A stretch of 64,000 nt of DNA from Agarophyton chilense (lineage: Eukaryota > Rhodophyta > Florideophyceae > Gracilariales > Gracilariaceae), in NCBI GenBank assembly GCA_030374765.1, contig JARGXX010000109.1:904838-968837 (forward strand), given 5' to 3'. Both the position numbers and the translations under genes were made by a program. The notes under the pieces are model-generated. The model was not told where the DNA came from and searched no databases. It saw only the letters and a program-made list of their open reading frames with translations. Shown here piece by piece: positions 6,580 through 45,523 of the stretch; positions within the stretch are counted from its first letter, which is position 1, and every line of letters starts with the position of its first letter.

Positions 6580-8243
6580 TTAGTTGGAAGAACCCTGGTT
6601 GCCGTGCGCGCCAACTGAATCGCTAGTGGAGTTACTCCCGCCGGTCAGGCGTGCCACGAGGGCGTCTCTCATCGCACCGATGTCGGCGCTCGCCGCTTGC
6701 GCGTTCAGTCCATCATCCCGAAGAAACTGGGAGATCACGACCGCCTCTAGGCGTATGGGAACCTCGATAACTTCCGGTTCGTCCGGCAACGCCGCTGCCA
6801 CTGGATTGACCACCGCACCTGCGTGAGTCGCTCCCTGCGCCGGCTGCGCCGTAGTATCGGCACCATCGGGGTCTCCCACGTCTTCCATGACCTCGTCGCC
6901 ACGGTATTCGCCCGCCTCCTCCGGGAGATCATCACCGCCATAGGCGTAGTAGAAGTCATCCGAGTTGACAAACCCCACGGGGTGCCCGTATGGTATGCCT
7001 CGCGGAGCCATCCGGAGTGCCGACGCCTCCGCCTCGGAGATCTCTTGCTGCTCCCATGGGTTAAAGAAGATGAAATCTCCCGCCAACGGCGTGCGACGCC
7101 CCGGAGACCGATCATCCCCACCGGCTCTTGACCACGGCCGCTCTGCCAGACAGGCACGACAGCCCAGTCGACACGCCCAATGATGTCGACGAGCTCCTGA
7201 GCTTCATCAGCATTATTGACACCTGCAAGAGGGTGTTGAAGGTCCAGCTGCCGGATGAAACCACGCAAACGCGGAGGAAGATACCACAGTCGATACTGGT
7301 CGTAGGCTTCCCGCAAGATGTACGCCGCGGCGCGGACTGCCTATTGGGTTAGGACCACAAACCATAAGCCGGAGTGCGGATCCTCGATGAGGTACGAGCC
7401 CAGATAGGAGACGAATGGAGGCAACTCCACGTAACATCCCCGGCACACCTCGACGGAGGACCACCACCCAGGCAAGGGAACGTATCGCCCGAACTGATAG
7501 AAGGGAATAATCCGGTTTATCTCCATGTTCTGATGAGGAACAAAAAACCCTAAGTGGGATCTGCCCCGACGCTCCTTTCGGATGAAGTTCTGTAACCATC
7601 GATATCGGGACTCACGACGAAGGTGACGGAACTCGGCACGAATGATCGGACGGACCTAGCAGATCGCTTCTTGACGCGCTCGCGGTTGACCACGCCATGC
7701 GTAAGTTTCCAACGCCGCATGGCGGTCACAATAGCCGATCTCACCCTGAGTCCGGTACATCCGTAGGTCTAAGCCGAATTCGTCGGGGATGGGGTATTGA
7801 AAGTTCGCTCGGTTGATCCGTGAATAGCCGATGCGGACAAATATGCAATGCGCCTCCTCCGCCGACTCGCGCCTTCGCCGCAAAATCGCGTGAACGGGAA
7901 CCGCCACACGGCGTCGCCAATCCCCCGAGGTGGTGATCAAAGCCAGCAGCTCGCCCGGGAGACGCGCATTGCCATCAGCATACGACGCCACCAGTTCTTC
8001 GTCGAGGACCGCTGTCGGATGGAACCACGGAGTTCTCCGGAGAATCGCCGCATGTTGACGTGGGTTTAACCCGACGAGTTCGTCGTAAGTGGGACAGGTG
8101 TCCTCCGCAGGAGTGATGTGGCTTGAAGCTTCAACGGGACCCCGGGATCGGCCCGGCGCGGTTGACGAGGCACTCCCCCGGGGAAGGGGAGCCGAATGGA
8201 AACCGGAGAAGTAACCCCGGCGAGGATTGTTACCACCGTTCAT
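6580..8243 (-). pseudogene. Antisense gene of chromovirus A (broken)
   Basis: A long minus-strand reading frame lies between the chromodomain and the polypurine tract. From an ATG at 8243 (MNGGNNPRRG) one frame runs to about 7090, broken only by TAG at 7656-7658 and at 7341-7343. A frameshift near 7085 leads into the final frame, which ends at 6580 (FFNPWEQQEI, then an acidic/Ala-rich tail). It resembles the antisense gene of element C in order and motifs: a G/R-rich start, a P-I-P-x-E-F block against P-I-Y-P-S-D, WWSSVEVC against WWECHEVS, LPPFVSYLG against PTPLVLAYLG, and NPWEQ against PPTWE. I recognise no known domain. It could encode a regulatory or accessory protein of the element. Confidence 0.62.
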
Positions 8244-8469
8244 CGGGAGTACTGGTCACCGAGGTATCGGGATGTGGTCGCTGGAAGTTGGCGTACGATG
8301 CAGAAGAGCGCTCGAAGTTTGAGGAGTGGTTACCGCGTTGGTGCGATTGTTGTTCGGTTGTGCTGCTCTGCCTTCGACAGTCGAGTGGTCGCTGGACGCG
8401 TTACGCGGCTCGCTCTTATGCCGGTTGGACCGTTGCCTCCCAGCCATGTCGACGGCGTGTTCGTCACCC

Positions 8470-8482
8470 AAGGAGGGGGATA
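8470..8482 (+). other. Polypurine tract of chromovirus A
   Basis: AAGGAGGGGGATA lies immediately before the TGAAGG start of the 3' LTR, the position of the plus-strand primer in LTR retroelements. Confidence 0.75.
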
Positions 8483-9370
8483 TGAAGGACAATGCCCTTC
8501 AAGGGGGTTTCTTCCCCGGACTTAGAGATTTCGGTCGCTGGAGGACTATCTTGGTCTATGACAAGCTATACCGCTATTGCGTGCTGACGGCCGGTTAGGA
8601 CCGGAAGTGCACACTGGTGGAACACGTGGATTGCACGGATGCCGACGCTCGAGTGCGAGGCGTGCCACACGTGGCCCGGATTCTACCTAATGGTTAGTAT
8701 TATATAGTAATTTTTAGTATTTATTTAGCCACGCTATCGCTATTTAGTGTCTATTTTTCGGGCGCGCGCCCACTGTCAGGGCCCGCGCGCCACACTACTT
8801 AGGAAGTTGAGCACTGCACCCCAGTAAACACCCTCTTGGGCGATACCAAGGAGGGAGTCTTGGCTCTGAACTCTTCGCCTTCGGCGCGTCTTCACCGCAT
8901 ACTGCGTGAGCGCGCGTCGCACGTTAGTTCATCCACCCCTCTGTCGACCGGAGTGCTACCACCACCGTGGGTTCATATTTAATCGCCGACACCTGTCGTC
9001 GTCTCGCCACTGTATAGGGTTTCGCCCCCGTTTCCGCTTGTTCTTCTTTTTGGCACTCGTGAGTGGCCGCACCACTCACCCCGCTTGTCCACATCATACG
9101 AGTGTTTCCTCGCTCCTTTTCCGACAATCGCCGTGATACCGCTCCGCCTAGGATTGATCACACCCCGGACTGTGCCGTGCTCACCTAAACACTCTGGGGA
9201 TATCCCGCCGGATTGGCCTCGGTCTTACACCCGACTCCGTCGTGACTTTCCAGAGTGGCTCTGTTTCTGTGGTCCGCTGGGACGCGTCCCCTCCGCCTGA
9301 GGCGTGTCTCTCAAGAGAGGAAGATCCCGAACATCTTCGTGGTGTCTCCGCTCCAAGCGTTGTCCTACCA
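8483..9370 (+). repeat. 3' LTR of chromovirus A (family LTR-A)
   Basis: It starts TGAAGGACAATG and ends GTTGTCCTACCA, so the ends form a short inverted repeat (AGGACAA/TTGTCCT). Most of its length is repeated in reverse orientation at 34918-35803. A diverged copy with the same ends sits at 12491-13353, and that copy's flanking target duplication confirms the boundaries. Confidence 0.88.
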
Positions 9371-9871
9371 AAAACCCGTAGGGGCAAATGGGGGGGCGAC
9401 TAGCCTATACCGGGTAGGTGAACGATGGTAGGCGTCGACGCGCGGGAAAGCCTGTGTGGTAGTTGAGAAACAATGAATTAAAAGGTATACTCGTGACCCA
9501 AGTGATGCCTGTCGTTATCAGATTAGGATTGGGGAGGTGCAGTTCCCTATATGCAGTGGACTGCCCTCTCCACATCACCCGGGAGGTGCCAGCAAGGCAC
9601 GGTCTCTGACCTAGTTTCAGAGACCTGGCCACCACTGGCTACAGTGCCAGGTGGCCACTCAACTACTGTACTAAAATACACATAATTACAATTACTATCA
9701 CTAGCAATTACTCAACCATAAGGTACATGTCAACAATACACGTGGCTGAGAACACCTAGATGGTAGCTGGCCCGGAGCTGCATGACCGATGATTCCTCGC
9801 ATCCATCAACTACAAGGTCAGTGTAGGATATTGACAACCTCAAAGGTCAATTCTTCTGCCACTATAAGACA
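9371..9871 (-). repeat. Truncated LTR of family C, inverted
   Basis: The reverse complement matches the LTRs of element C from their TGTC start (here the complement of ...AAGACA at 9871) to a GGGTTTT segment at 9371. About 110 bases of the LTR 3' end are missing, and the break coincides with the end of the A LTR. The simplest reading is that element A inserted into this LTR, so the missing part would lie left of the window. Confidence 0.82.
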
Positions 9872-12101
9872 TTATGACATCCGTTATATCCTTCCACGGA
9901 TATTATGACTTTAACTCTGACTGATGATCAAACCACTCTTGACTGAGAAGGTATTCGCCGCAAAACGAGCTTTGCATCAAATTCTCATTGGAGATGCTTT
10001 ATAATTCACGCCCAGAATGCGAACCCTTACCTTTAACAGCTCAGGCTTGAACAATATCCGAAATGAGTGGAGACGGTACATATAAACTTTCTTTATGGGA
10101 ATGAAAATGTGATTAGGAAGCTCTCTTACGACATCCTTCCCCCCATGTGGCTCTTACACCTTTATAGTAGCTGTCATACCTCCTTAAACCGTCCTTTTCG
10201 GCCTCTTTCTTGTCTTAAGCTCGCTCAAGGAACTTGATATGCAAAGTTTGTTTTTTATTTCCTGACTTTTTTGTAAATAACTGTTGATCCTCACTTTTTA
10301 CATCCTGTTTGATGGTCGGTAAATCTCCGCAGATCTCTTCGTCACAGTAACTCACAGAGTAGTTTCTCCTGTGTAGTCGTATCTCGAGATTCCTATGTGA
10401 TTGGAAAAAATGTGGAAGTTGCTGCTGTTTTTCAGATGTGTTCACCGATAATAAATTGGTTTCTGCGGTATCTTTAGAGAGGAAATGATTCCGTTGTGAA
10501 TAGAATCGATATCGGCTGGCGTACTTTTATCACAAAGCTTCTCCTGGAGACTATTTATAAGGAACTCATCCGTAACGAGAAGCCTACGATGGGCAACTCT
10601 CACAATGATAACTGCCATCCTCTCTCCATCCTAAGTCCAGCGATACTGCTCTGAAACTGATGCCGAGTAATCCTTTTTAAATATTTCAATGGTAGTAATC
10701 TCTTATGTACACAGAAATGAGAAATTGTAGATAGAGCAACAGGGCCAAAGCTGAATGAATCACGTTTATTTCTATAACACAGAACATGGAGCATGTAGTT
10801 TTGTTTTGGGTAGCTCTAACATCTCCTTCCCCTCAGTGCATGATTCGAGAGCGAGGCCACCAATATCCTTTTCCCCACAGGACATATCAAGTCAAGACTG
10901 TCTTCATGAAACAAAATCCAAGTCATAAATACACGTTGTTTTGCAATAATGAGACCCCAGGGATAATAGTTGATATTAAAAGGGATCAAAAATGTATAAA
11001 TAGGACCAAAAAGAGGTATAAAATTTGTATTCGTCTCTTTTTTAACCGGGTAAAGATATTGAAATCGCCTTTTTGTTTCCCAACGTTCTTTTGATTTTTG
11101 TCAAAGTCTATTATATGTCCAATATTGCACTCTGATTCACAAAAACACAAACGAAACACCATTCCTTAGTTTATTTCAACAATGCCGGCGGAAAGCAGTG
11201 TTTTACAAAACCAAGCTCCCGGTTCGCAAAAAATTAAAAATACGTGTCTTTAAAATCCATAATGTTTTGCTTCATTTATAAATACACTTTTTTAATTGCA
11301 AGTAAACGTTTATAAATTCAAGGAAGATTGTATTTATTCTATTTAAATTAATTGGCGTGTTTCCTCGAATTTGTTCTAAAAATGTTTCCACTCTTTCACA
11401 AGATTTATGGCTGGTTTGAAATGATGGTGTCTCTATTAGAGCTTCTGAACTCTTTAAAGCTCTTTATTGTTGTCTCAAGAGTCAAAGTCATCTCGAATAT
11501 GCTTGTTGTCAGATTCAAGGTAGCACTGAAAGAAAAAATCTAGAAAATTTTCAGGAGGTGTTTACAGAGTTACATCAATGGGTTTGTGCAGCATTACTAT
11601 TTAGTATGAGACAATAAAGATAAAAAGGACGCATTTTGCGTTCAACGCTAGATGAACCTGTGCATAACCGACAAAACTGGAAATTAAAAGGTGGGTATAT
11701 CCGGTACCGATGTGTGACCCCTTTGTATCATTTTTTGAATGGATCTTTCCAAAAGAAGATAATGAAAAACTGGCAATATGGGATCGTCACGTTAAAAGCG
11801 CGCCAATCTCGAATTTGAGCTCAGCGAATTGTGCTAGGAACCGTGATTTTCTACGGCCAATGAAAGCAACGCGCATATGCGCTCCGGCCATTAGTGTGAG
11901 CTGGACGTAAGGATTCGCTTGCTTGGCACAAAGATATTGGTTACTGAGGAGCGTGCAGTAGATCAATGATTTCAGTAGAGAACACCCCAATTTTTTGGTA
12001 GGATCCGGGCACTTTTCGGCACACGCCACACAGCATGTAGAATCTCCATTAGCCTCATTCATACCTACTGTGTACCTTGTACATATCCCTAATATTTTCA
12101 G
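9872..12101. other. AT-rich stretch without recognisable gene
   Basis: Only short reading frames occur, the longest about 100 codons and none with recognisable motifs. A Lys/Gln-rich 76-codon minus frame (10215-10445) and a 102-codon plus frame (10786-11094) were considered, but neither has a clear start context, signal peptide or motif. Base composition is clearly more AT-rich than the neighbouring retroelement. Confidence 0.5.
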
Positions 12102-12330
12102 TAATGTACGGTGTATCGTACATTAATGTTTACGTGGTTGTAGTTGCGTTCGTGGTTTTTGGGGAAACTTTCAAGGTGACAGGGATGGTATGGAGTATGT
12201 CAGAAGAAGATGTGAAAAGTTTGAAACTAAATGGTGTTCGGGATCGCTGTCATTTTGCATGGGGAAAAATGGGTTTCACGTCACCTCAAACAGAGGCAAA
12301 ATTGCTTTATGTACGATGCACCGTACATTA
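12102..12330. repeat. 229-bp MITE-like element with 24-bp terminal inverted repeats
   Basis: The left end (12102-12125) is TAATGTACGGTGTATCGTAC plus ATTA, itself a near-palindrome. The right end (12307-12330) is its reverse complement with two differences. Two more copies of the same 24-mer stand at 16719-16742 and 16772-16794. The interior has no convincing gene. Confidence 0.55.
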
Positions 12331-12377
12331 GAACAACAACAAAACAACGTTTAAAGTAGGACTATCCTTATTTCTAG

Positions 12378-13497
12378 GTACTACGAAGACGAGATCGTAG
12401 AGATCGTGGCTCGGACTCGGTGCTACGACGTCGTTTACGCCTCGGACCGTCAGAAGAGGACGCACTTATACCTTCATTTCCTTCACCACTTGAAGAGCAA
12501 CGTCCTCCAGGGAGGTTTTTGGGGACTTAAGTTTTTTCCGGAGCCTCCGGCGTGCAACCTCGTTATGAGTAGGAGTAATCCGTTTTCACGGCGTTGCCGG
12601 AACGCCGGTGATGCACCCGCGGGACCGGGTGCCATACACGTGGCCGCAGCGCCCGCGCGACACGTGGCCGCCAGATTGGCCCCTTTGTTAGACGGACATT
12701 TGGCTATTCAGGATAGACTTTATTTATTCTATTTTACGGTGACTACAGTACTTAGGCTGCCGGCCTCGCGGCCGCCGGTCCAGTAAAGTCTCCCCAACAA
12801 GGGTGATCTTGGTCTTCCAGATCTTGGCTCTGGGTCGAACCGCCTACGCGGATATACAACTCCTTACGGAGGGATTTCCCGTGGTGCACGGCTTCCTAAC
12901 CCCCTTGGACGTTCAAGCAGCCTTCGTGTGTTGGGTATCTATTCCAACTTTCGTGGTTCCGCCCGTGTATACGGTTTGCTACACCCGGCAGTGCCGGCTA
13001 TTCCCGAGTCCCCTCTTGCGACTCGTGGTCAACCTCGCCCTCTTGCCTCCGTTCCCATTTTCCTTCCCTTTTCCTCCCCTTCATTGGGCAATTCCTGCTC
13101 TTGCGGCTCGCACTGACACCTGTCGTGCTCGCCACTCTCGTGGGTTTTGCCTCCTCAGAGGATACGCAAGCACCGCTTCGGCGGATATTCTCGGCTTCTT
13201 TCAGCCTCCCTGCGCCCGTCGCGACGGTTCGGCTCCGGCTTACACCCGGCATTGCGCGCCGATCCCTGGGAGGGCTCTACCGCGCCGGTTACCTCGTGAG
13301 AGGAAGATCCGGACGTCTTCGTAGGTTTTCCCCCTTGGGGGCATTGTCCTACACCACTAGGCTCTGGCGTTATCCGTGGCGAGTGTGACAGCCGCCTAGC
13401 TTCTAAGCGCCTGTTTGAGTGCCAAATATCCCAGCACGAGCGCCAGGAACCCGGAAATGTTCTCACACAAAGATGTACATCACAGATACAGCATTGA
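12378..13497 (+). pseudogene. Short open frame interrupted by solo LTR
   Basis: If the solo LTR at 12491-13353 and one copy of its target duplication are set aside, the flanks form one open frame of 83 codons from 12378 to the TGA at 13495-13497. The left part is Arg/Asp/Ser-rich (LRRRDRRDRGSDS) and the right part is a mixed sequence. No ATG begins it; it follows a TAG that also looks like a 3' splice site (pyrimidine-rich tract plus AG). It may be chance or an exon-like remnant. Confidence 0.25.
12491..13353 (+). repeat. Solo LTR, diverged LTR-A family, with CCACT target duplication
   Basis: The 863-bp element starts TGAAGAGCAACG and ends CATTGTCCTACA. It is flanked on both sides by CCACT (12486-12490 and 13354-13358), a perfect 5-bp target duplication. 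Its start and end match the chromovirus A LTR, while the middle is much diverged. No internal sequence remains, so it formed by LTR-LTR recombination. Confidence 0.9.
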
Positions 13498-13565
13498 AAG
13501 CATGACCGATGATTTCTAAACCCTTGGGTGCCTTTTCTATTCATGCCGCAAAGAGCACACCATTT

Positions 13566-16500: not shown

Positions 16501-16584
16501 AGTACAGGAATGTTCTGAGGGCTTGGTGGTCTTTCGGAGGTGCCGCAGGAGTCCTGAGGAGGGATAGAAGGCTGGAATGCACAA
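13566..16584 (-). pseudogene. DDE transposase with inserted YqaJ-like nuclease domain
   Basis: Two minus-strand frames form one broken protein of about 1000 residues: 16584 to 15403 and, after a frameshift at an A9 run (15415-15423) and a TAA stop (15327-15329), down to 13566. The N-terminal part is basic (RGRPRGSGR). Transposase landmarks follow: LDDDLYGTR (about 15706-15730), VTADRGYGK (about 15464-15490) and, much later, KTKGGVDGS (about 14019-14036), which resembles the piggyBac GGVD motif. About 350 residues between the second and third landmarks hold a PD-(D/E)XK nuclease pattern of the YqaJ type: CNEQ (14678-14692), SADG (14571-14582) and VEIKT (14481-14495). The transposase and nuclease assignments rest on motifs only. 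The arrangement suggests a DNA transposon whose nuclease was inserted into the catalytic core. Confidence 0.65.
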
Positions 16585-16718
16585 TTTGTAGATTTAAGCT
16601 TAGTTTAACACGTGGACAGTAAAGAAGAGCCTCCTCTTCAAGATGGTGTGAACATAATCGCTCTCTAATTCACCCTTTAAGAGCTGCGATGATTCAAAGA
16701 AGTTCCCAAAACAGGACC

Positions 16719-18803: not shown

Positions 18804-18810
18804 TATATAA
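18804..18810 (+). promoter_or_regulatory. TATA box of the 18873 gene
   Basis: TATATAA lies 63 bp upstream of the chosen ATG. Confidence 0.55.
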
Positions 18811-25877: not shown

Positions 25878-27140
25878 GCACGCAGAAAAAGACATCTTTG
25901 AATGGTGATAGCGCGCAAAAAGAAGAGAAACAGCTGTGGACCCCATCGTCAGTCTCCTTGCGTTGGTCGGATCACATCGCTGTTGGTCTCGCCTTGTCAG
26001 CGAAACGCTCCCTCCGGTTTTTCTCAAGTTTTCTGCCTTCTGTTTTCTTGCGTGTTTTGCGTTATCTTGCTATCCTTGTTTCCCACCCACCACTCCCTCG
26101 CATTCCTCGCACATTGGAAGTTAAAGCGCACAAAGCTGCGCTGTTGTCTTGCCCAACAAGAGTAAGGTTTTTGACAGCTGTGTCTTTTCGGCGTGGCGAT
26201 TACGCGTAGTTTCTCGGAAGCTACACTTACTAAGATGACCCTCCGGGGTTAATTTGATAGTGCTTTCTGATGGCAGAAAAGTAAATATTGTTGTTATTTT
26301 TCGGCGTATTGGTCTATAACCTAGCAAATAATACCAAGTGTTGTAAATGTAACCTTACACAGTGCACAACTCTTAGGCGGGTGGGTAATATAAAGAACTA
26401 CACAGCATGCACAAAACGAACATAAACTCAATAATTATCTGTTGCTGAATATTTTTGTGTAGAAAATACCAATATTGAAAACCATTTTTCGTTAAGAGCA
26501 AATTCTATTGTACTCACAGATCACCTGGAAAACTATCCAAAAACCATTCTATTTGAGCTTGAGAACAATCAAGTTGTTGACCAAACTTTTTTTTTAATCT
26601 ATACTTCTGGTTTTGAATTCGTGTCTACAACGAGATCAGTAGGATACTTAAGTTTTTTCTTCTGTATTCAAGTCAGACGGTTTGTGCCATTCTGCAGTAT
26701 CATCTGCTTTCCAGTATATTGGCATTTTGTCGCACCAATACCTAGTACTTCGTTGCTGTATAGCAATACAGTAGCAATGATTTTTTTCGACTTCATCCCA
26801 TATTATTGGCACCCGAAACTTCTGACATGGTGAAACATGGCAAATTTAGCTCCCGACCACAAGAAAGAGAGGATGTTTTCAAGAGAGTACGCAAGGAATG
26901 GGTCCATGCCACGGCATCACGAGAAACTCCATGTGATAACGTTCGAGTGCAATTAAATCTGCTTTTCGCGCAGTAATTATTTTATATCAATCGGGTCGAA
27001 TGCGTTCTCAATATCGGGTCATTTGGCAGCTGTTGCACATCCAGCTAGTCTAGTAGCTACTGAAACGGAGCGAGAATTCACTATCTTGAAAAAATCGCGC
27101 AAGAACGGGGTTGCCAAACTCATGTCCAAGAATCATAGCT
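25878..27140. other. Intergenic, AT-rich, no gene seen
   Basis: Several short overlapping frames at 25898-26209 lack motifs and are probably the 3' end of the oxidase transcript. The rest is AT-rich with no recognisable repeat. Confidence 0.5.
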
Positions 27141-27565
27141 TCAGATATGGTCTTCAGTGGCACCAAAGAGTCCTCATGCTTGTAGGTGTTGGAGCAGCCT
27201 GCCGTATTGTTTATGAGTTTCTACCCTATGTTCATTGTTGATCCAGCAACAATGTGAGCGTTCGTTCATTTTCGGCTGCCAACACACTGAACTAGAGCCA
27301 AGTGCCTGCTCTCGTTCAGTTTGGTATGGGGAGGCGTGAATCTGTAGCATAGAAAAGGGTTTGCTGGTGTCATGAATGCAGACGAATCCTTCTTTGCTAA
27401 CCAACAACATGGAATTGGTTGAGACTCATTTTTTACAGATGACATAATGAGAAGGGGTCATTATCTTTATCTTGAGTGTTACAATGAAGCAAGAAACGGG
27501 TTGGCGCATTAAAGGATGACACGCTTTATTGGTCCCCAAAATCTCGCTGTTGCTGGTCGACTCAC

Positions 27566-27573
27566 TATATAAA
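27566..27573 (+). promoter_or_regulatory. TATA box of the vWA gene
   Basis: TATATAAA lies 114 bp before the ATG. It is conserved in the duplicate at 62959-62966. Confidence 0.65.
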
Positions 27574-27686
27574 CCATTGAAGATAGGCCATCAACTTCTG
27601 CACTAACCATACAGCAACTTAAACTTGGGAAGGTCTACCTACAATTCAGCACCACCTACATAACTGGTCTCTTACAACAAACTAAG

Positions 27687-28418
27687 ATGTTTCGCATTCT
27701 CATTTCCTTTTTTGCGTTTATCGCAGCTGCCCAGGCCGCTGTAACTGCTTCGCAGGCACAGACTCGAATTAATGCCATTGATTCTCCTTTACTTGAGGAC
27801 CCTACCAATCTAGCGTCCGTCGATGAAGCCATTCAAATCGCTGTTAACTCTAACTGCGATCCAAATATCTGTTTTGCAATCGATGGCAGCGGTTCTATTT
27901 CTGAGGATGAGTTCCAGCTCCAACTAGACTTCGTGAAGATCATTGCAGGTGTTGTTTCTCTCGACCCAGGCTCGCAATATGCTGCTATTCAATATGCCTT
28001 GAGACCACAGTTTATGTCCAGGCTAACTGAGAACGTCGAACAGTTCCTTCTGGATGTACAGAGCACTCTCCAAATCCGATCACCCAGAACTTTCATTGCT
28101 CCTGGACTTGCAGGCTGCATGAGACAATTGAACAAGGTTAAGGGCGAGGCCAATAAGATCATTCTGATGGGAGATGGTCGCAGTACCTTTGACAGTCGGG
28201 ACCCCCCGCTTGATCCGCCTTCAATCGCCCAGGTTTTCCTTGCTGAACCGAACAATGCCATTTCCGCGGTGGCTGTGAGTTTCCCGAATACAGAAATGCT
28301 GGAAGCTATCACTGGTACCCCCGATCGTGTATTTATGGTTGCCGACTGGTTCAGCGTTCTGGACGTTATCGAGGAACTTGTGGAACAAGTTTGTGGGAGT
28401 GATCAAGTCGAGTTTTAA
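27687..28418 (+). CDS. Secreted von Willebrand factor A domain protein
   Basis: This 243-residue intronless gene has an N-terminal signal peptide (residues 1-18, MFRILISFFAFIAAAQAA) and a single vWA domain from about 57 to 236. The metal-ion-dependent adhesion site is complete: DGSGS at 66-70 (D66, S68, S70), T135 in RSPRTF and D163 in LMGDGRS. Such domains bind ligands through a divalent cation, usually in adhesion or matrix assembly. Four cysteines (57, 62, 144, 236) could pair at the domain ends, as in many secreted vWA domains. There is no membrane anchor. The partner is unknown; a role in cell wall or surface adhesion is inference. A damaged copy lies at 63083-63865. Confidence 0.88.
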   Translation: MFRILISFFAFIAAAQAAVTASQAQTRINAIDSPLLEDPTNLASVDEAIQIAVNSNCDPNICFAIDGSGSISEDEFQLQLDFVKIIAGVVSLDPGSQYAAIQYALRPQFMSRLTENVEQFLLDVQSTLQIRSPRTFIAPGLAGCMRQLNKVKGEANKIILMGDGRSTFDSRDPPLDPPSIAQVFLAEPNNAISAVAVSFPNTEMLEAITGTPDRVFMVADWFSVLDVIEELVEQVCGSDQVEF

Positions 28419-31009
28419 TTTTCTTTCTGAAGTGTTCTGATTGCTTTGCTAATCTTGTTAAGTAATTCCTTATGTAAAGATCACTCGTTTCAATACATTT
28501 TGAAAACTACTGCGCTGTTCTCTCTATTGTAATTCTCTTATGAAGATGGCATGTTGCGGTTCGTGTGGTTTTCATCGCTTTGGGCTACATACTGTATCTA
28601 TTCTCTAAAATGATTCAAGGTTTCCATAATGTAGGAAGTGGACGTCGATTTAGGGCGACAAAATAATTTCGAGGCACCTCAAACTGTGAGCTTGTACTAT
28701 TTAGTCTTGAGATTTTACAAAGATCGAAGCGTTCTGTCTTGGTTGGCAGATGGAGAGCATGATGGCTGTTTCATGACGCGGAATGTTGCTAAAGCACAAC
28801 GTTTATTTTCGTCGAATTTGCGCAACGATGGTATTGCGAAACAGAACGATCACAGCAATGTGGGATTTCTGCATGTGTTTCTGGCGCCCGTGGAACGTCA
28901 CTTTTGGTTTCAAGTTTGCGTGTTGGGGCCGTAGTAATCCGCTGTGGCACGCAACACGACCCCTCAACGAGCGAAGAAGAATCTGTGCAATGAGAGCTGG
29001 GTGATGTACTGTAATACCTCTCCATACAAGGGTGCAAGAACTCAGAGGAGCAAAAGTGGTATTTGCTTGTTTGCTTTGAATTTCATGACGTGTTTTTAAT
29101 ATGAGATGCGAACAGCAAGTTTTCAGCTATTGGCGGCGTTGTACTGTATCTACGCATCCACCTTCGAGGATACTCCGCATTGTTGATTCCTCCTTGACAA
29201 CGAAGGTTTCCTGAACTATAAAACCTTACCGTCTAAATAATACGTCATGCGACAATTCCTAGTTACGACTGGTTTACCTGGAGCGCTGGTGCGCGGCGTC
29301 GTCGACACTATCTTCCCCTGGCACTGTAACTGACGACAGCAGCAGGGCGACAAACAAAACATGCTGCGAGAAACACTGAGCCACAGCTGCAGTTGAAAGC
29401 CGTGCTGTCGCCAAACAGCGCATCTAAAGGCTACTATTCAAAGGCATTCTCGAAAGCCAGTTGGAGGATGCCGCCAGAATTTCATGTAGGCAGCAAACTT
29501 TCTCTGAAATTCTGTACCGTTGTGAATTGTACGACAAGTGAGCAAGCATTTAAAAAGAATGCAGCATTAGTTACCCAAGGGTAGTGGCTTTTCAAGGGAC
29601 GACGAAGATGTTTTCTCTTGCTGTGCTCCTGGTGACATTTGGACATGGCACTACAGCTGACAGCTAGATCTAAATGACACAATGACATTGACTTAGCACA
29701 TGCACTGACATTCAGGTCCGGCACACGTACACATATCCACATGAAGACAGCGTTGAAACCTGGACAGAACAGTGTCGGTTTGACTAGATCTATCTGCATG
29801 ATCTACAGATAACTGTTTTCCATGACACTGATTTCAACACCAGAACCCTGTCCAAACCTATTTGTTCATCTACTTCAACTCTATGCTGTACTGGAACTTT
29901 TCATTCCCTTGCGTGCTGCGTTCTCAGTGACATACTGTTAAGAACAGGAGAAGAAACATTTCCCATCTTGAAAACTCTTTAGACCCCCTCTTCCCACCTG
30001 CAGTGTGGCTGGTAGCCACAGGAACGCTTGCCTGGAGCGCCCAACGAGCTTGATCATTTGTATTTATTCATCCACTATCGTTCTTAAGTTCTTTAACGAT
30101 AAAACGCGTTGGACAACAATCTTTACCAAAATTTGTAAGAAACCCTTGGTTTATTGCGCTCTTCGCACTTCTCTCTAGCACAATATCCAGCCAAGTTGCG
30201 ACATGCGGATTGGAGTATTTCTTGACAACGAGTGGAGAGGCACTGTGATTATCATTAATTCTACAATAGATTGGCTGCTTTTTCTGGAGAGAACTGTCAC
30301 CCTAGGGTAGAACAATACGAATGTGGACGTTAGTAGTGGTAGTTTTATTAATTAAAGTTATATTGATGGGGCACCTCTCCCGCCTTTTCAAAGAAGTGAC
30401 TGACACCCAACAGGCGGCACAAACGCTGCTGGAGTCGTGCCGGAAGCAAAATTCTCCTCTTCAAAAGGGTTGTATTACCCAACCTTCTTTTCATAGGAAG
30501 AGGGCATTGAACTGCCAGGCTTTAGTAGAGTAAATTTGTTTCACTAATATCATCGCAATTAGTATCTCAGTATCTCTGCTTCCAGCGCAACACCCCCTGT
30601 ATCCATCAGTTTGAAAGCGAATAGGCCTGAAAAGTTGATTAGTGAACGAGATTTTCTTGTGGTTGACACTTGGTTGTACAAAGTCGAACAGCTCTTCAAA
30701 CTTGTTTAACTTGAAAATGAACAGTTTTTGCTCACTAACGAGAGCTGAATATCGCTCGGGTCTATTTTCTGACAAAAACGGCGGCAAGGTGGTGGTATAC
30801 TCTGTTACAACACAATACAGCTACGGTAACATGAAAGGCTCTTGTTGCAGCTTTAAGAAAAGAGTTTTTTTTCAGGATCACAAACTTCAGGCCCGGGACA
30901 ATCTCAGGTCTTATTAGCAGGTATTTAATGAGCCGTATTATCTTTTGAACTTCAAAACATCGTCCCAATAATTTCAGACGTTAGTGAGAGTGAGAAATGA
31001 GATAAAGTT
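28419..31009. other. Long stretch without recognisable gene
   Basis: The first 130 bp are the 3' flank of the vWA gene shared with its duplicate. Beyond that only frames below 110 codons occur, none with motifs or signal peptides that convince me. Confidence 0.45.
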
Positions 31010-34917: not shown

Positions 34918-35803
34918 TGTAGGACAACGCTTGGAGCGGAGACACCACGAAGATGTTCGGGATATTCCTCTCTTGAGCGACACGCCTCAGGCGGAGGAGA
35001 CGCGTCCCAGCGGTGCACAGAAACAGAGCCACTCTGGAAAGGAACGAAGAAGTCGGGTGTAAGACCGAGGTTAATCCAGCGGGATATACATAGAGTGTTT
35101 AGGTGGACACGGCACAGTCCGGGATGTGACCAATCCTAGGCGGAGCGGTACCACGGCGATTGTCGGAAAAGAAGCGCGGAAACACGCATATGAGGTGGAC
35201 GAGCAGGGTTAGTGAGGCGGTTACTCTAGAGAGCCAAAAAGAAGTACAAGAGGAAAACGGGGGCGAAACCCTATACAAGAGCGGGACTACGACGCGTTTC
35301 GGCGATTAAATATGAACCCACGGTGGTGGTAGCACTCTGGTTGACAGAAGGATGGATGAACTAACGTGCCACGGGCGCTGACGCAGTATGCGGTGAAGAC
35401 GCGCCGAAGGCGAAAAGTTCAGAGCCAAGACTCCCTCCTTGGTCTCCCAAGAGGTTGTTTACTGGGGAGCAGTGCTCAACCTCCTAAGTAGCGTGGCGCG
35501 CGGCCCCTGACAGTGGGCGCGCGCCCAAAAAATAGACACTACATAGCAATAGCGGAGCTAAATAAATACTAAAAACTACTAAATAATACTAACCATTAGG
35601 TAGAATCCGTGCCACGTGTGGCACGCCTCGCACTCGAGCGTCGGCATCCGTGCAGTCCACGTGTTCCACCAGTGTGCACTTCCGGTTTTAACCGGCCGTC
35701 AGCACGCAATAGCGGTATAGTTTGTCATAGCCCAAGCTAGTCATCAAGCGAGCGAACTCTCTAAGTCCTGCGAAGAAACCCCCTTGAAGGGCATTGTCCT
35801 TTA
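34918..35803 (-). repeat. Solo LTR of family A in the piggyBac-like gene
   Basis: The reverse complement starts TAAAGGACAATG and ends TTGTCCTACA, closely matching the 3' LTR of chromovirus A along its length. It is flanked by CCAAC (34913-34917) and TCAAC (35804-35808), a 5-bp target duplication with one later change. No internal sequence remains. Confidence 0.9.
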
Positions 35804-36006
35804 TCAACCTTCTTTTCCATATTCAAATCATCTTGACGTGACCTATTATGCCTATAGATTCTTGAACAACAAGAATAGAACTCCTCAAAAACCTCTGTAA
35901 TATCGATAGTAAGTGGAATTTTCTTTTTTACTTCATCATTTGCTCTTAATCTTTCACGAGAAATGGGAGTTTCTGGGTCGGTACTGCTACAGTTGCCGAT
36001 GAAATA
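35804..36006 (-). pseudogene. piggyBac-like transposase, middle piece
   Basis: About 67 codons are open without a stop from the chromovirus C boundary to the solo LTR: YFIGNCSSTDPETPISRERL and onward to YRHNRSRQDDLNMEKKV. This corresponds to the region around the third catalytic Asp in piggyBac-like transposases, with RQDD in place of GGVD. It was not visible as a separate gene because both ends are cut by insertions. Confidence 0.65.
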
Positions 36007-36622
36007 TGTCGTATGGTGGCAGAAGGGCTGACCTTTGGGGTTGTCAATATACTACACTGACCTTGTAGGTGATGGATGCGAGCGATCATCGGCCATGCAG
36101 CTCCGGGCGAGCTACCATCTAGGTGTTGTCAGCCACGTGTAGTGTTGACATGTACCTTCTGGTTGAGTAATTGATAGTAATTGTAATTGTAATTATTTTT
36201 ATTTTAGTACAGTAGTGGAGTGGCCACCTGGCACTGTAGCCAGTGCTGGCCAGGTCTCTGACACTAGGTCAGAGACCGTGGACCGTGCCTTGCTGGCACC
36301 TCCCGGGTGATCTGGAAAGTGCAGTCCACTGCATATAGGGAACTGCACCTCCCCCATCCTAATCTGATAAAGACAGGCACCACTTGGGTCACGACTATAC
36401 CTTTTGGTTGATTGTTTCTCAACTACCACACAGGCTTTCCCGCGCGTCGACGCCTACCATCTTTCACCTACAAGGTATAGGCTAGTTACCCCGCCGTTTG
36501 CCCCTGCGGGTTTTCACGGTGCCCTGTTACCATCGAGGTTTATTACGTCTATATTCTAAGGTTGAGCGTCACCACGCTCCCGAGTCAAGACAGTAGCATA
36601 CCCCAGAGGTGATTGTACGACA
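36007..36622 (+). repeat. 5' LTR of chromovirus C
   Basis: The 616-bp LTR starts TGTCGTA and ends TACGACA (7-bp inverted termini). It matches the 3' LTR at 46681-47315 and the truncated copy at 9371-9871. Confidence 0.93.
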
Positions 36623-36625
36623 TTT

Positions 36626-36638
36626 TGGTCTCCCGACC
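36626..36638 (+). other. Candidate primer-binding site of chromovirus C
   Basis: TGGTCTCCCGACC begins three bases after the LTR, as expected for pairing with the CCA end of a tRNA. The tRNA cannot be named from the sequence alone. Confidence 0.5.
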
Positions 36639-36685
36639 TAGAAAGTATTTTTAGGTTTCGTCGTACCTTCACGGTTCACACGAGA

Positions 36686-38980: not shown

Positions 38981-39909
38981 TGGCCGAACCCAACCTGCAA
39001 GTGGAAGGCCAATCGATACCCAGAACCTTGAAGGTGGAAGAGAACGCTTCACAACCAGTTCCTGTTTCTCATATGAAGTACAACAACTATAAAGTACGTG
39101 CCTCAATGTGTTTCTCCGATCGCCTTGCGGTTCCATTCACCTGCGTGTTGGAAACGGGGGCCGGCCCAAACGTCCTGAACTCCCTCGTTATAGCTGCGCC
39201 GGTACTTTGGAACTTGAGCCGACCTCCCGACAACAACCCGCTTGTGGATGCAAATGAGCGCCCATTAAACCTTCGAGGTATGCTCACCACTGTGGTGCAA
39301 CTCGGAATCCTCAAGGTAAGACTGCTATTCTTTGTTGTCGACCGTTTACCGACAGACTGCCTACTAGGTACGAACTTCATTGACAGACATGTCAAAGCAA
39401 TCCTTCCTGGTTCCCATACAGTCGCCCTACGTCAGGGGGGACGAACTGCCATTTTAGGTAATACGGAAACCAAAAGGGGATGGTTCGTCAAACCGAAGAA
39501 GACGATATCCACCGAAACGGTCTCCAACAAAGTGCGCATTACCAAACAGGTTGTTATCCAGCCAATGCACCAAATATTGGTACCGGTGTCGTGTGCGACC
39601 CCTGGGCTGGTCATGTTACAAAACCATCCGAGGTTAGCACATCGACACCTCACCATGGTGGCCAACGGGATTGTCGACAACATCCCAAATCAACTCTTTC
39701 AGGTGTGTCTCAGCAACTTCAGCAGTCATGACGTGAAGTTTCCGAAAAATACCAATGTTGGCATCGCACTACCGGCACCGCAAGGGGTCTTCACGGTAGC
39801 TCACACTGATCTCGGCGAGGTCGCCCTTGATAAGGAAGGGGGTGCACAAATGCGTCCACAACCACAAAGCTTTGATAAATACCAACTTGGAAGCGAAAGT
39901 AACCGATAA
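38980..39909 (+). pseudogene. pol: Protease and pol N-terminal region of chromovirus C
   Basis: The retropepsin active-site strand reads TCVLETGAGPNVL, so Glu replaces the catalytic Asp exactly as in element A (VLENGAG). The second strand is DCLLGTNFIDRHVKAILPG. The rest (for example HRHLTMVANGIVDNIPNQLF) is the conserved domain between protease and reverse transcriptase, also seen in elements A and B. No stop interrupts this frame, which ends at 39909 after overlapping the reverse transcriptase frame from 39827. Confidence 0.82.
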
Positions 39910-41282
39910 GGCATCGGTAGACAAAGAAGAGAAACCGGGCCCTGAGAGGCAATGGAAAGATACAGTTCAGATCGGTGAAGAAAACGGCCAACTGCGGGGC
40001 CGTATTACCGACCTTCTGGAGAAGTTCGACACCATGTGGGCAGGCCATCTGGGCCAAATTAAGGCCACACAGCATGGCATCGAGCTCCTCCCTGACTCGA
40101 AGCCTATTTACCGACACCCATACCGTGCAGGTTCGAAGGCGAGAGAAGTAGAACTCAAAGAAGTGGAGCGAATGCTCCAAGAAGGTGTAATTCAACCAGC
40201 CAACTCAGATTGGGCTAGTCCCGTGGTTCTGGTTCAGAAGAAAGGGGATAACCGTATGAGGTTCTGTGTGCACTACAGGAGGCTCAATAGCGTGACCGTC
40301 AGGGACTCGTACCCGATACCCAGAATGGATGGGTGCATCGACTCCTTGGGAGATGCGCAGATATTTACCACGTTGGATGCCAATTGTGGTTATTGGGAGG
40401 TACCTGTAGGTGAGGAAGACCAAGACAAAACGACCTTCACGTGCCGTGTAAGTTTTTTTCGCTTCACGCGGATGCCATTCGGGTTGCGCAATGCTCCAGC
40501 CACCTTTCAAAGGGCGCTGTACATCATCGTTTCGAAGGTTAAATGGACAACCGCCTTTGTATACATTGATGATGTAATCATCTACTCCAGATCGGTAGAA
40601 GAGCATTTTGCACACGTACGCACCGTACTAACCCTCCTAGCTGAGGCAGGGGTGACACTGAAGCTACGCAAATGCGTCTTCTTTACCATAACGGTTGAAT
40701 ACCTGGGCCACATCATAAGCCCTGGTACCCCAGAGGTTGCGCCGAGCAACATTAGAGCCGTACAGGAGGTCAAGTTACCACGATCCCAGACAGACGTACG
40801 GTCCGTTATAGGTTTATGTAACGTCTATCGTCGCTTCGTGAAGGGATTCGCAAATAGCGGCCTCCCTCAACAAGAAGCTCCAGAAAGGTGAACCTGAACG
40901 GTTTGAGAATCTATCGAACGACGAAATTGATACCTTTGAGGAATTGAAAGGAGCGCTTTTGTCGCCGCTAATCTTAGCGTTACCGAAAACAGGTCTACCG
41001 TACACGCTGGATACAGATGCATATCATGCCCAAATTGGTTGTTCTCTCATGCAGGAGCAGCACAACGGAGACAAATTATCTATAGGGTATTGGAGCCGCG
41101 CTATGAATGAGGTGGAGCAGAACTACACCATAACCGAGAAGAAATGTCTAGCAGTAGTGTGGAGCATGTTGATGCACCCTCCAAACCTTTATGGTGAGCG
41201 CTTTACGTTGCCCACGGACCACGACGCTTTAAGGTGGATCCTCGGACTCGCACATGCGTCTGATAGAATTGCCCGTTAGAGG
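39910..41282 (+). pseudogene. pol: Reverse transcriptase and RNase H of chromovirus C
   Basis: The reverse transcriptase frame (39827-40891) shows HPYRAGSKAREVE, MRFCVHYRRLNSVTVRD, FTTLDANCGYWEVPV, RMPFGLRNAPATFQRA and the catalytic YIDD at 40562-40573. It shifts frame near 40860-40890 into RNase H: YTLDTDAYHAQIGCSL, TEKKCLAVVWSM and PTDHDALRWIL give the D-E-D triad. A TAG at 41277-41279 follows IAR, after which the frame goes on into the integrase. Apart from the shift, this is the best preserved part of the element. Confidence 0.9.
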
Positions 41283-42716
41283 TTGAGACTGTCGCACTTT
41301 GGATACGACATACGGTACCGTCCAGGTATCACGCACAACATAGCTGATGCTATGTCACGCTTAAACACCTCAGGGCTAGAGACAGAACCTGTGGACGATG
41401 ACATCCCTTGCTTTTTGGTGTCATCAAACCAAAATGGTACCGGTGAAAACCTAGAAGAATGTTGGGACTTACCCGAAGAAGGTGCCTTGCGGAACACCGA
41501 CATGGCAACGCAGATACTGACCCAAGAGGAAACGATCTTCATGCCCGTATCCCGAGAGGATTTTCTACAAGAACAGGCCCAGGATGCGTACCGCAGAACC
41601 CTGGCTGACCAAATTGGTTTCAAAGAATCACCATTCGATGTGGACCACAATGGGTACATCGTGAGAAAGTCAACCTTGGATGGTAGCCTTCAAAAGATGG
41701 TTCCGAAGGCGCTGCGCCCGAGAGTCTTGTACGTCGCGCACTACCCGCGACTCTCGGGACATCCAGGTGCCACCAGAATGTATTACACCTTGAGGCAACA
41801 GTTCTCTTGGCCTCATATGGCTCATGATGTCTATACCTTTGTAGGTCAATGCGAATCCTGTGTTCGTACCCGCGGTGGTATTCGAAAGCATCGAAAGTAT
41901 CTCAAGCTGTTTCCAGCAGCGGTTCCGCTTGAGTTTGTTGCGATAGACCTTCTACGACCACTTCGCAAGACCAAGAATGTGTATCAGCACATTCTACTGA
42001 TCACCGACAGGTTCTCGAAGCTCACGAGAGCGATGCCTTTAAAGGATGCGAAGTCAATAACGCTGGCGATCGCGTTCCTCAACAATTGAGTCTACCCGTA
42101 TGGTGCACCACTGTACCTACTTACCGATAATGTTTCAAACTTGGCATCGAAGCTCTTCGAAGCAGTCTGTAACCTTTTGGGTATCAAGCACTATTTCACT
42201 ACTACCTACCACCCGCAGACGAACGGACAGGTCGAGCGCGTTAACCACACCTTGGTATCAAGGCTACGGCACTATACGGAAGAGCACCAAACTGGGTGGG
42301 ATGAGCTGGTGCAACCGTTCACCTACTCCTATAACCTTCAGGTACACCGGTCAACGCAGACCACTCCCTTTGATTTGGTTCTTTTGCGACACCCCCCAGG
42401 TATTGTAGGGCAGGGAGCTCATACCACCAGCACTGCAGCTGGCGCACTGACCCCTGCCCAGGTCAAGAAAAATACCATTGTGAGGTTAGGGAGGGATCTC
42501 AAACATGTAGAGCGCCGCCTCACTGCAGGCCAGACGCAGTACAAGACCGACTTGGACCGTAGGGTAACCAAAGTGGTCTCTATATCTTCGGGACAATATG
42601 TCTACATAGACCACCCACCTTCAGGTAAAAGAGAACGACCGGGTGATGAAGCAAACGATGAAGCTATGGATAGAGATATCAATTCGAAGCTTCTACCCAA
42701 ATCAGTGAAACCTTAA
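41283..42716 (+). pseudogene. pol: Integrase of chromovirus C
   Basis: The RNase H end (YRPGITHNIADAMSRL) is followed by an intact HHCC zinc domain (HYPRLSGHPGATRMYY and later QCESC). The DDE core has VAIDLLRPL (first Asp), then a TGA stop at 42087-42089 after AFLNN, LLTDNVSNLASKLF (second Asp) and HPQTNGQVERVNHTL (Glu). All three acidic residues are kept, unlike in element A. The frame ends at 42716. Confidence 0.9.
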
Positions 42717-42722
42717 AAAGTA

Positions 42723-43275
42723 TTGAACGCATCAGACCACACCATTACGATTGAACAAGATGGAATACCGAATACAATATCAATTGACCGTATTACGGTA
42801 GCACCTGAAACGGTTCAACATCGCATTGAGGCATGGAGGCTCCTCAGCCCGAGAGCCCAGAGCGGTAGCTCTGCGCACTCGACCCTCAGAGGACCCCACC
42901 CCAATTGAGGTGAATGATGAACCACAACGGGATGATCCGGATTACAACCCTCTAACAGGGACGGCAATTGAACCTCAAACGGTAACAGCGGGAGCTCTCG
43001 ACCCGGCTCCCACAAACGAAGCTCCCAACTCGGAACACATGAACCCTCGAGGTAGCGCTCCCCCGAAAGATCAGGACCAAACCTCAGAAGAATTTCTTGT
43101 TGACCGTCTGGTGGGCCACACGCGAACCTACAATGTTCTGAAGTACACCGTCAGGTGGTACGGCTGGGGCCCAGAAGGGGACACCCTCGAACCCCCACCC
43201 GCGATATCCCCACACTTCCGTATCAGGTATTGGCGCCGTCGCACGAAGAAGATGCCTGCAGAGGGCGAACTTTAG
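42723..43275 (+). pseudogene. pol: Linker and chromodomain of chromovirus C
   Basis: After the integrase a frameshift leads to a proline-rich linker and a chromodomain core (EEFLVDRLVGHTRTYNVLKY then TVRWYGWGPEGDTLEPPPAI). The aromatic WYGWGPE segment matches WYGYGPE of element A. The domain ends at a TAG (43273-43275). A purine-rich AAGGAAGGGGGAGAAA at about 43297 follows directly; it resembles a polypurine tract but lies far from the 3' LTR. Confidence 0.82.
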
Positions 43276-43429
43276 ACCTTTGTGGCACTCAGGCCTAAGG
43301 AAGGGGGAGAAATGACGCCGTTCTCCGCAGAAGGTGGACGCATATGCGTGTCAGATGACCTACAAGGGAGGACACGAAAGAACAACCGAATGTAACATTA
43401 GAGGAGACAAGAAGAGACAACAATTTACT

Positions 43430-45523
43430 TTAAGAAGGAAACAATAAGGAAGTTAAGTGGCAGGCGGCCGCTACAAGAACCTCAAAGGTGAAGCGACAGA
43501 AAGTCTGGCCCCCAAATCCGGGAGTAGAAGGACCTGTCGGTTTAGGAGCAGTGGGATCAGGAGGACCAGTGTTATTGACTACCCACGGAGGAAAACTTGC
43601 AGAAATGGTAGGAGCCATCGACCTAGGAGGTAGCCAAGGAGCAGTAGCCCCGCCACTGGGGAGAAGAGTCGAAACCAAAAGAGGATGAACGAAAGGAACT
43701 GCCGGAGTGGGTTGCAAAACCGCGGGGTTCAAGTTAGCACCTAGAAGGGGATCCGTCAAAATATCAGATGGCGCAGCAGCAGAGACGCTTGCAAGATTAG
43801 CAACCTGACGGGTGGCCAGTTGGTACATGTCCAACTGTAACCGATTCCGGAACTCACCAAGTTGGTTCAGCGCCTTCCCGTATCGCGCATGGCACGGCAG
43901 CAAACCATCAAGGAGCGTTAATGCAGCAACCACAGAGTTAGGCTCAGCCCTCTGAAAGTTAATGACGCAAGACTGGCGAATTCGAGCCAGAAAACCGACC
44001 AGGGCCGGAGCATCCATCATAGGTTGAGGCGGAGGACCAGCAATACCCGTCAACAGAGGTTGAACCGGACCAGCAACCCGTGAGGGGCTCGGTTGAGGAG
44101 GAGACACATCCGCAGGGATAGGTGACTTACGATCTTGAGGTAACGGCTCGGACGGTGAAGGACCAGAATAACGACCAACCGGTGTCCCCACAGTACCGTG
44201 ATATGGTTCGGAGCTCGCGGGAGCTCCATAAACAGGAGGCTTTCCGGGATAATATTGGGCGTGGCGAGGCACAATCTCCCAAGTTGGGGGATCGAAAGCC
44301 TCCCAACCTTGATGGGAATCCCAATTGTAATTCTTGCTCTGCTCGAGATACGAGTCCAAATCCTTCACGTTATAATCGGTCCCCTCAGCGATTCTCTCGT
44401 AACCAAATCGGAAAATATCCTGGACAACCCTCGGAGGTATGAAGAAGATGCGACCTACAGGTTGAACACCATCTCGGTATATGTCAGAGTCGAGATTGCA
44501 ACAATCCAAATCGATACCGTAACGGGCGGCCTCCAGAGCCAGGATGGCAACCAACACGGTCCACTCCGAGAGGGCAACCGACCAAATGAGGTAATACCTC
44601 TCTAGGTTCTGGGAAGTCCGACTCCCTAAGTACGCCAAAACCAGCGGAGTGGGCACGCTCAGCGATAACGAAACCTCATGGCACTCCCACCACTCTTGTC
44701 GAAGCACGTACCAATCGCGTCTGTCCTTCGTAGGTTGTGAGAAGTACTCGACATTATGAAACATATGCATAACGCGAGTGTAAGAGTTGCGAGTGTGAAC
44801 GCGACTCTCCGTCGCTGCATCCTCGCCCCACCTACGACGGTCAGCTCAATTGATAGTGGTAAAATGCCAATTCAGGGACACCAAGTCAGGTGAAACCGGA
44901 AGGTAAGTTTCCGGAATAGACGAATACTGGCACACTTGAACCACCAATCGACGATAATAATCCAGCTCCTGTTTGATGCTCACATACGGCAAGTCGCTCG
45001 GATATATCGGCGGGATGAAATACCTCAAAGGTGTATGACGCTGCCGACTCTGGTAACATTCCATTCGAACCTGACGAGTTTGAGACTCTTGGTACCTTTT
45101 CTCCAAGAGCAATGCAACGAAGCGAAGGCGCTTGCAGTCCCAACGGGACAAACCCAAGTGGGTTTCCAATTGTGGTCTGGTAAGAGCTGTCGGCAATGAC
45201 GAATTCCCCACCGCCACAGGCCAATCGAGCTTCAACAGGTCATTGTGCGTCACCTGGTCGAAGGTAATACCAAAAGGTCTATACTGACTCGTCGTCCGGT
45301 TCGCCGCACCAAACGCGAGATTGGGAGCCCAATTGGTTTGTGTTGTCGGAGGAAATCCACCACTGCGTTGGTGTGGGTCAGCCGAGGTCCCAGGGGAGAA
45401 CTGTGTCGCGGGGACAGGCACGCTGCGAAAAACAATGTTTGTAGGCGTTCGAGAAGTCGAGCGGGTCACCCTCTTGGTAATACCCCCGCGTCCACGGCCA
45501 CGAGATGGGCCGATACCTGACAT
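43430..45523 (-). pseudogene. Antisense gene of chromovirus C
   Basis: One minus-strand frame runs from ATG 45523 (MSGIGPSRGRGRGG) to 43430, about 698 codons, with a single TGA at 44846-44848. Without that stop it would be one protein: a Gly/Arg-rich start, a middle with KRYQESQTRQVR and YFIPPIYPSDLPYVSIKQEL, then RRDWYVLRQEWWECHEVSLS, a hydrophobic stretch (YYLIWSVALSEWTVLVAILA), a proline-rich linker and a C-terminal helical part (QLDMYQLATRQVANL). The antisense frame of element A (6580-8243) has the same place, direction and motif order, with a stop at the same junction. I recognise no known domain. The gene probably has its own promoter in the 46000-46500 region. Confidence 0.7.

Follow-up and report, generated by a model that had tools for sequence, protein, structure and literature searches.

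A family of antisense genes in chromoviruses of the red alga Agarophyton chilense

At least six chromovirus families in the genome of Agarophyton chilense (A, C, D, E, F and G) carry a gene of roughly 620-850 codons that lies between the chromodomain and the 3' LTR, on the opposite strand. Judged from sequence comparison, the two antisense frames found in the window (the whole stretch of DNA analysed here, 64,000 nucleotides long) are decayed copies of this one gene family and represent its two deep branches, the A type and the C type. Substitution patterns indicate that the frame is under purifying selection at the protein level between families, and it probably gives the elements an additional helper protein. 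The finding of the earlier note, which had seen similar-looking minus-strand frames in elements A and C, stands and extends beyond what that note saw.

Elements A and C and their antisense frames

The following features of the two elements were located in the window.

174..1484, plus strand: element A, frame of 437 codons in the gag position (role assigned by location; Pfam gave no match)
2891..3979, plus strand: element A, reverse transcriptase and RNase H piece
3983..5599, plus strand: element A, integrase
6123..6365, plus strand: element A, chromodomain (27.1 bits with Pfam Chromo, which exceeds the cut-off)
6580..8447, minus strand: decayed antisense gene of element A (family-profile matches at 8259-8447, 7656-8243, 7344-7655 and 6583-7203)
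8485..9368, plus strand: element A, 3' LTR (bounded through an inverted copy at 34919-35804; start good to about 3 bases either way)
36007..36581, plus strand: element C, 5' LTR
39827..40891, plus strand: element C, reverse transcriptase
41283..42716, plus strand: element C, integrase (frame 41283-42089 from Pfam; frame 42141-42716 by eye from the translation)
42826..43275, plus strand: element C, stretch resembling a chromodomain (a weak match at 16.1 bits, E 0.011, below the Pfam cut-off)
43430..45988, minus strand: decayed antisense gene of element C (three pieces: 45542-45988, 44846-45523 and 43430-44770)
46681..47249, plus strand: element C, 3' LTR (94% identity with the 5' LTR)

A second direct copy of the element A LTR was looked for in the window and not found, and the 5' end of this element appears to lie to the left of the window. 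The LTRs of A and C do not resemble each other, as had been noted (best same-strand match 33 bases, 76%, E 0.06), but the integrases share 42% identity across 182 residues, so that A and C are relatives and should not be called unrelated. Both had also been credited with a chromodomain, which passes the Pfam cut-off in element A and fails it in element C.

The minus-strand frames are present in both elements where the earlier note placed them. The frame starts that it quoted do occur in the sequence, but they lie too far downstream and are not those of the families, since the A-family start is an ATG upstream, at window position 8447, and the C-family frame opens upstream at 45988. Less than 40 bases separate the start codon of element A from the LTR. 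Similarly, the stops at 7656-7658 and 44846-44848 are both there, but they are not a shared feature of a junction within the gene. Among 30 aligned copies of each family, two in A have the A-copy stop and six in C the C-copy stop, and four of these six (the window copy included) are identical across the searched piece; a conserved stop or readthrough junction was rejected because the stops are confined to this minority. The two stops are the result of decay, and the window copies are dead. Stop-free relatives occur in the same genome, with 622 codons for the A type (locus L054) and 818 codons for the C type (locus L034).

Homology of the A-type and C-type frames

BLASTP searches with the window pieces gave no match. 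Comparison of the A profile with the C profile, in contrast, scored 70.9, a value reached by none of 200 column shuffles (maximum 26.4), by the reversed profile (13.6) or by 200 shuffles within 10 columns (maximum 38.2). When all families were included, the profile-profile probability was 97.7% (E 2.3e-12, score 103.4, against 32.8 for the best of 100 local shuffles), and a HMMER search with the A profile detected the C frame of the window (E 1.1e-6). The proposed homology, which a lack of significant profile alignment would have spoken against, is thus upheld. Among the motif pairs listed earlier, the WW and YLG pairs are in register, whereas only MAFFT aligns NPWEQ with PPTWE.

Spread among the element families of this genome

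The four further families with the gene are D (L070), E (L071), F (L076) and G (L077). The expectation that related elements would carry the same frame holds in part: of nine chromodomain loci inspected, four have a strong profile match and one a fragment, but four have none. One of these four resembles a host gene and two belong to one family. The element-like chromodomain loci L069, L073 and L074 contained no copy on profile search, hence the gene does not occur in every chromovirus of this genome.

Genome searches with separate families returned at least 95, at least 150, at least 138 and at least 77 matches. For family E, 54 of the 77 matches listed (about 478 codons each) are stop-free, with 27 stops altogether, and 40 of these 54 lie in frames whose length is exactly 640 or 650 codons. 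The reverse transcriptase (RT) domain has 130 stop-free matches among the 150 listed, with 21 stops in stretches of about 161 codons, so that the antisense gene of family E and RT carry similar numbers of stops per codon among the matches listed, which were chosen by score and, for RT, mix families. The family E gene runs opposite to RT in 43 of the 44 matches with a listed RT within 8 kb, and in the lone exception, too, an RT lies on the opposite strand at a distance of 4.4 kb. Likewise, all 20 matches of family F and all 19 of family G that have a listed chromodomain within 4 kb run opposite to one, some of the G matches being pieces of one copy.

Selection on the protein

In all 12 between-family comparisons, which are not independent of one another, differences are more frequent at third codon positions (0.62-0.73) than at positions 1 and 2 (0.29-0.57). 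Between-family pN/pS is 0.46-0.79, and dN/dS is 0.22-0.52 in the nine comparisons with finite dS. The neutral pattern that the earlier note had considered is consequently refuted between families, but within a family most copy differences look neutral. In family C, with three identical rows left out, 88 of 176 variants present in at least four copies fall at position 3, an excess that the singletons do not show (477 of 1451; Fisher p 1e-5). Family A follows the same trend (38 of 85 shared variants at position 3, Fisher p 0.06), but the selection signal inside this family is weak. A within-family test of codon positions on all copies gives a slight excess only.

Protein features and relatives in other species

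The proteins have a variable N-terminal part and a conserved core, to which the A type adds an acidic tail and, at the C terminus, a short conserved motif. Across five full-length proteins no Pfam family was found up to E 10, and the CAP_N-CM match of a window piece (E 0.045, below the Pfam cut-off) was discarded as absent from them. A PDB sequence search gave no matches, PHROGs a single match at E 0.088 for four proteins, and two AlphaFold models had no usable fold (mean pLDDT 35.9 and 34.3). No nuclear localisation pattern common to the members was found. The idea that a TATA-like motif in the A LTR drives antisense transcription was also rejected, since only four of 30 A copies, the window copy included, have such a motif in the 600 bases before the start.

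Relatives were found in Gracilariopsis chorda (proteins of 617, 565 and 247 amino acids) and Gracilaria domingensis (419 amino acids). In the tree, the proteins P0002, P0007 and P0005 cluster with family D, not with A (100/97), from which it follows that the A/D split predates the genus split, unless horizontal transfer occurred.

Proposed function and alternative explanations

The likeliest role of the product is that of an accessory regulatory protein. The short distance between start codon and LTR in element A leads us to place a putative promoter in or beside the 3' LTR, from which the mRNA would run convergent with gag-pol. The protein would be a trans-acting accessory factor inside the cell, probably in the nucleus, and may tune how the element is transcribed, enters the nucleus or integrates, a role modelled on the proposal for Grande gene23 and on antisense retroviral proteins. 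Taken as a whole, this proposal of a selected antisense gene with an LTR-side promoter and a trans-acting nuclear factor is the one towards which we lean, with modest confidence.

It could be asked whether the open frame matters as a protein at all, rather than only as antisense RNA or by chance. Control of retroelements by antisense RNA is known (PMC7264820), and the largely neutral differences within family A would fit such a role, which we nevertheless regard as very improbable and largely refuted: long frames recur in six families, the protein is conserved across genera, and the third-position excess between families is accompanied by stops, in one or both sequences, for all 36 pair-frames read in the element sense. 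Element-sense frames across the gene reach up to 268 codons in A and 286 codons in C, yet all 30 C copies and 28 of the 30 A copies, which were retrieved by match to the protein, have their longer frame on the gene strand; the remaining two A copies have it in the element sense. An effect on host silencing, with the antisense protein binding or blocking a small-RNA response, is a less remote but still unlikely reading. The antisense mRNA and the genomic RNA must be complementary, and with both present about 2 kb of double-stranded RNA (dsRNA) would form; in A and C of the window the gene lies inside the stretch that the genomic RNA must span, and selection acts on the protein. Against this, Pfam revealed no RNA-binding domain in the five proteins, and AlphaFold offers no fold in its favour.

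Two further explanations seem improbable to us, that of a passenger gene which the elements took up a single time from the host or from a nested element, and that of a reversed envelope-like, movement-like or particle protein. Gene capture is known in other retroelements (PMC7264820), but no relatives beyond Gracilariaceae were found among 5.8 billion proteins, within the word and length limits of the search, and the gene has stayed under selection across divergent families. A reversed envelope or movement protein would find some encouragement in the C-type protein of L034, where a hydrophobic stretch from residue 464 reaches a Kyte-Doolittle value of 2.47 over 19 residues. The four other proteins tested, however, peak at 1.19-1.53 over their whole length, so that a membrane segment (peak above 1.6 in one of five) is not generally shared, and profile comparison gave no sign of kinship with the gag-position, protease or integrase frames tested (probability at most 1.0). 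Returning to the accessory regulatory protein, a bolder version may be entertained, although we think it unlikely: the gene would be ancestral to an entire clade of red-algal chromoviruses and older than the Gracilaria-Gracilariopsis split, and its protein would overcome the difficulty raised by the gene's own orientation, in that it would block dsRNA silencing or let the element alternate between a quiet antisense phase and a mobile sense phase.

Comparison with known antisense genes

The gene is of a known kind, with red-algal chromoviruses as its carriers and a protein matching no family searched. Antisense additional ORFs between pol and the 3' LTR (aORF-3R, an architectural class) have been described in maize Grande (gene23), rice RIRE2 and Silene Retand (PMC7264820), and the accounts consulted depict genes like the red-algal one in place, orientation, many copies, relatives in several species and the lack of a clear function (PMC7264820, PMC11963269). 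The placement is seen together with LTRs in A and C of the window and is indicated by orientation in E, F and G; multiple copies and occurrence in other species are equally found here. Retand elements are described as non-chromoviruses of eudicots and Liliopsida, with a TRP28 (PF04195) antisense ORF in 97% of clusters (PMC7264820, PMC11963269). The red-algal carriers differ in being chromodomain elements, the chromodomain adjoining the gene in A (by Pfam), weakly in C, and in matches of F and G. Membership in TRP28 (Transposase_28) was rejected, as PF04195 matches none of the five proteins and its genome search gave nothing above the cut-off (one match at E 0.05).

The brtn gene of Boty in Botrytis cinerea, an antisense additional gene of a fungal retrotransposon, has been placed with the aORF-3R class (PMC7264820), and by that description would resemble the red-algal gene. 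Envelope-like additional ORFs are in sense orientation and have a transmembrane segment, whereas the present gene is antisense. The HBZ and APH-2 genes of HTLV are antisense with a promoter in the 3' LTR, and their products are nuclear regulators (PMC7264820, PMC11963269). These genes and ASP of HIV-1 share the antisense orientation of the red-algal gene, but the hosts differ. A bZIP domain is the defining feature of HBZ-type proteins, and none was found by Pfam in the five proteins.

Titles and abstract openings of the open-access literature yielded no antisense retroelement gene of red algae, which is no proof of absence, and nothing on Agarophyton retrotransposons. Some proteins annotated as "hypothetical" or "unnamed" in red algae are members of this antisense family. 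With hundreds of matches listed, many of them stop-free over the matched part, this genome is a place to ask what the gene does. A selected antisense gene in red-algal chromoviruses suggests that such genes arose repeatedly, or that they are older than thought; if the bolder version were true, an HBZ-like switch would have originated independently outside animals and land plants.

Antisense genes of elements A and C

The two minus-strand frames that the earlier note had claimed between the chromodomain and the polypurine tract of the chromoviruses A and C are present as described, and both are multicopy in their own genome (79.8 Mb, 135 contigs searched), where a piece of the C frame retrieved at least 95 matches and a piece of the A frame at least 150. 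The window copies are decayed; among 30 loci per family, the longest stop-free frame from the first ATG reaches 622 codons in A (copy L054) and 818 codons in C (copy L034). The start codons proposed from the window copies proved to be internal, the families starting at:

8447, minus strand, position corresponding to the ATG of the A-family antisense gene, less than 40 bases from the LTR edge near 8485
45988, minus strand, ATG of the C-family antisense gene

The stops at 7656-7658 and 44846-44848, previously read as a junction common to both frames, are carried by only 2 of 30 aligned A copies and 6 of 30 aligned C copies (four of these six being identical over the searched piece), and because of this minority distribution we reject a shared junction and attribute them to decay.

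The LTRs of A and C are indeed unlike, with nothing past 33 bases on the same strand (E 0.06). This AT-rich best match (76%, at 8688 and 46842) lies at similar depth in both LTRs and is possibly a core promoter. The elements themselves are two families within one clade, since their integrases are 42% identical; the antisense proteins share 22% identity in the core and have diverged further than the integrase. Other repeats in the window are:

8485-9368, A LTR, adjoining an inverted C-type LTR piece at 9371-9872
34919-35804, inverted A LTR, near the C 5' LTR at 36007-36581
62530-64000 and 27138-28550, direct repeats (96%)
57873-58158 and 53076-53361, direct repeats (99%)

The mirrored LTR junctions (8485-9872 and 34919-36581), about 91% identical, suggest a rearrangement or nested solo LTRs. 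The protein of piece 43430-44770 recurs with 100% identity at three other places (C13:6963, C110:15037 and C110:50429), yet the two LTRs of element C are 6% apart; these copies look like the product of segmental or assembly duplication, not of a recent insertion.

Homology and distribution

BLASTP between window pieces of the A and C frames gave no matches. Profiles built from stop-free segments gave an alignment of 236 columns with a score of 70.9 and 95% probability, as against maxima of 26.4 in 200 column shuffles, 38.2 in 200 shuffles inside ten-column blocks and 13.6 for the reversed profile, which bears out the proposed homology. When the two cross-species A rows were left out of this first comparison the score was 50.8 (probability 80%), still exceeding the shuffles. 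With all families included it rose to 103.4 (probability 97.7%, E 2.3e-12; maximum of 100 local shuffles 32.8). HMMER cross-matches between A and C were concordant both ways.

The expected presence in related elements held in part. Among nine loci of 3.3-3.6 kb, hand-picked across scores and frame lengths after a chromodomain search of the genome, four match the antisense gene strongly, always antisense to the chromodomain: L070, L071 and L076 (A type; families D, E and F) and L077 (C type; family G). L075 holds a C-type fragment, and the profile search found no antisense gene at L069, L072, L073 or L074, the last two being alike. L072 (G000:C116:699288-702646), where the chromodomain lies beside or within an open frame of 1119 codons that runs in the same direction, probably represents a host gene instead of an element. 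Genome matches listed number at least 67 with the L077 query, at least 138 with L076 and at least 77 with a Gracilariopsis relative, which retrieves family E; 54 of these 77 are stop-free across about 478 codons. The gene is antisense to a listed reverse transcriptase (RT) or chromodomain match in 43/44 E, 20/20 F and 19/19 G cases, orientation being testable only near such a partner (44/77 E matches, 20/138 F matches and 19 of the 35 G matches entered). The remaining 32 of the 67 matches to L077, for the most part less similar, did not enter the G count, in which single copies are sometimes represented by several pieces. The single E exception lies between two RT matches, the opposite-strand one 4.4 kb off.

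Three protein searches, each scoring only the best 7992-7994 word-sharing candidates, yielded ten distinct proteins (P0001-P0010), and the seven with named organisms are all from Gracilariaceae: three from Agarophyton chilense, one from Gracilaria domingensis and three from Gracilariopsis chorda:

Gracilariopsis chorda relatives: BWQ96_03215, BWQ96_10156, BWQ96_05177

The A. chilense matches are not independent of the window genome: pieces of a single locus there show 97-99% identity to the A. chilense protein P0003, which puts the window in that species or one very near it. Those from G. chorda and G. domingensis are independent. No relative from other red algae was found in the protein collection searched, from which masking may have removed element proteins. 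The tree groups four proteins with family D, not A (100/97), namely P0001, P0005 of G. domingensis and P0002 and P0007 of G. chorda, and C and G form a separate long branch (99/99); E, F, P0004 and P0008 have no firm place in it.

Selection on the antisense frame

The neutral substitution pattern named in the earlier note as evidence against a gene is absent between families, where differences are more frequent at third positions (0.62-0.73) than at the others (0.29-0.57) in 12/12 comparisons, which share sequences and hence are not independent. Between-family dN/dS is 0.22-0.52 in nine comparisons, values that are rough because synonymous sites are near saturation, and dS is infinite in three. 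Read on the element-sense strand, the same aligned codons run into a stop in one or both members of the pair in 36/36 pair-frames and in 69/72 single readings, the three clean ones all from L076. Sense-strand frames across the gene reach 268 codons in A and 286 in C, and the longer frame is on the gene strand in 28/30 A and 30/30 C copies. Within families, where position-3 differences are only slightly in excess when every copy is counted, the variation looks for the most part like recent decay. Among variants common to at least four copies the excess is clear in C, where 88/176 fall at position 3 (p 6e-6 vs one third), and weak in A, where 38/85 do (p 0.03; Fisher vs singletons 0.06).

Probable function

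The antisense protein has a variable N-terminal part and a conserved core; the C-terminal quarter of each of three A-type proteins examined is acidic, and four of five proteins have no membrane-like stretch. Full-length proteins had no match in Pfam, searches against PDB sequences gave no match and PHROGs none worth following, and two AlphaFold models were unusable. A sub-threshold match (E 0.05) to Transposase_28, a domain typical of plant Retand antisense genes, occurs at G000:C115:1611170-1611286. In place and orientation the gene resembles the accessory ORFs that Grande, RIRE2, Retand and Boty carry in antisense, which are the subject of PMC7264820 and PMC11963269; maize gene23 is described in the former as nuclear, with its own promoter. 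The protein would most likely be a regulatory accessory protein, a counter-silencing role being the main rival. The antisense gene family of red-algal chromoviruses is real and under selection; the kind of gene is already known, and, as far as our searches reach, the protein and the host group are new.
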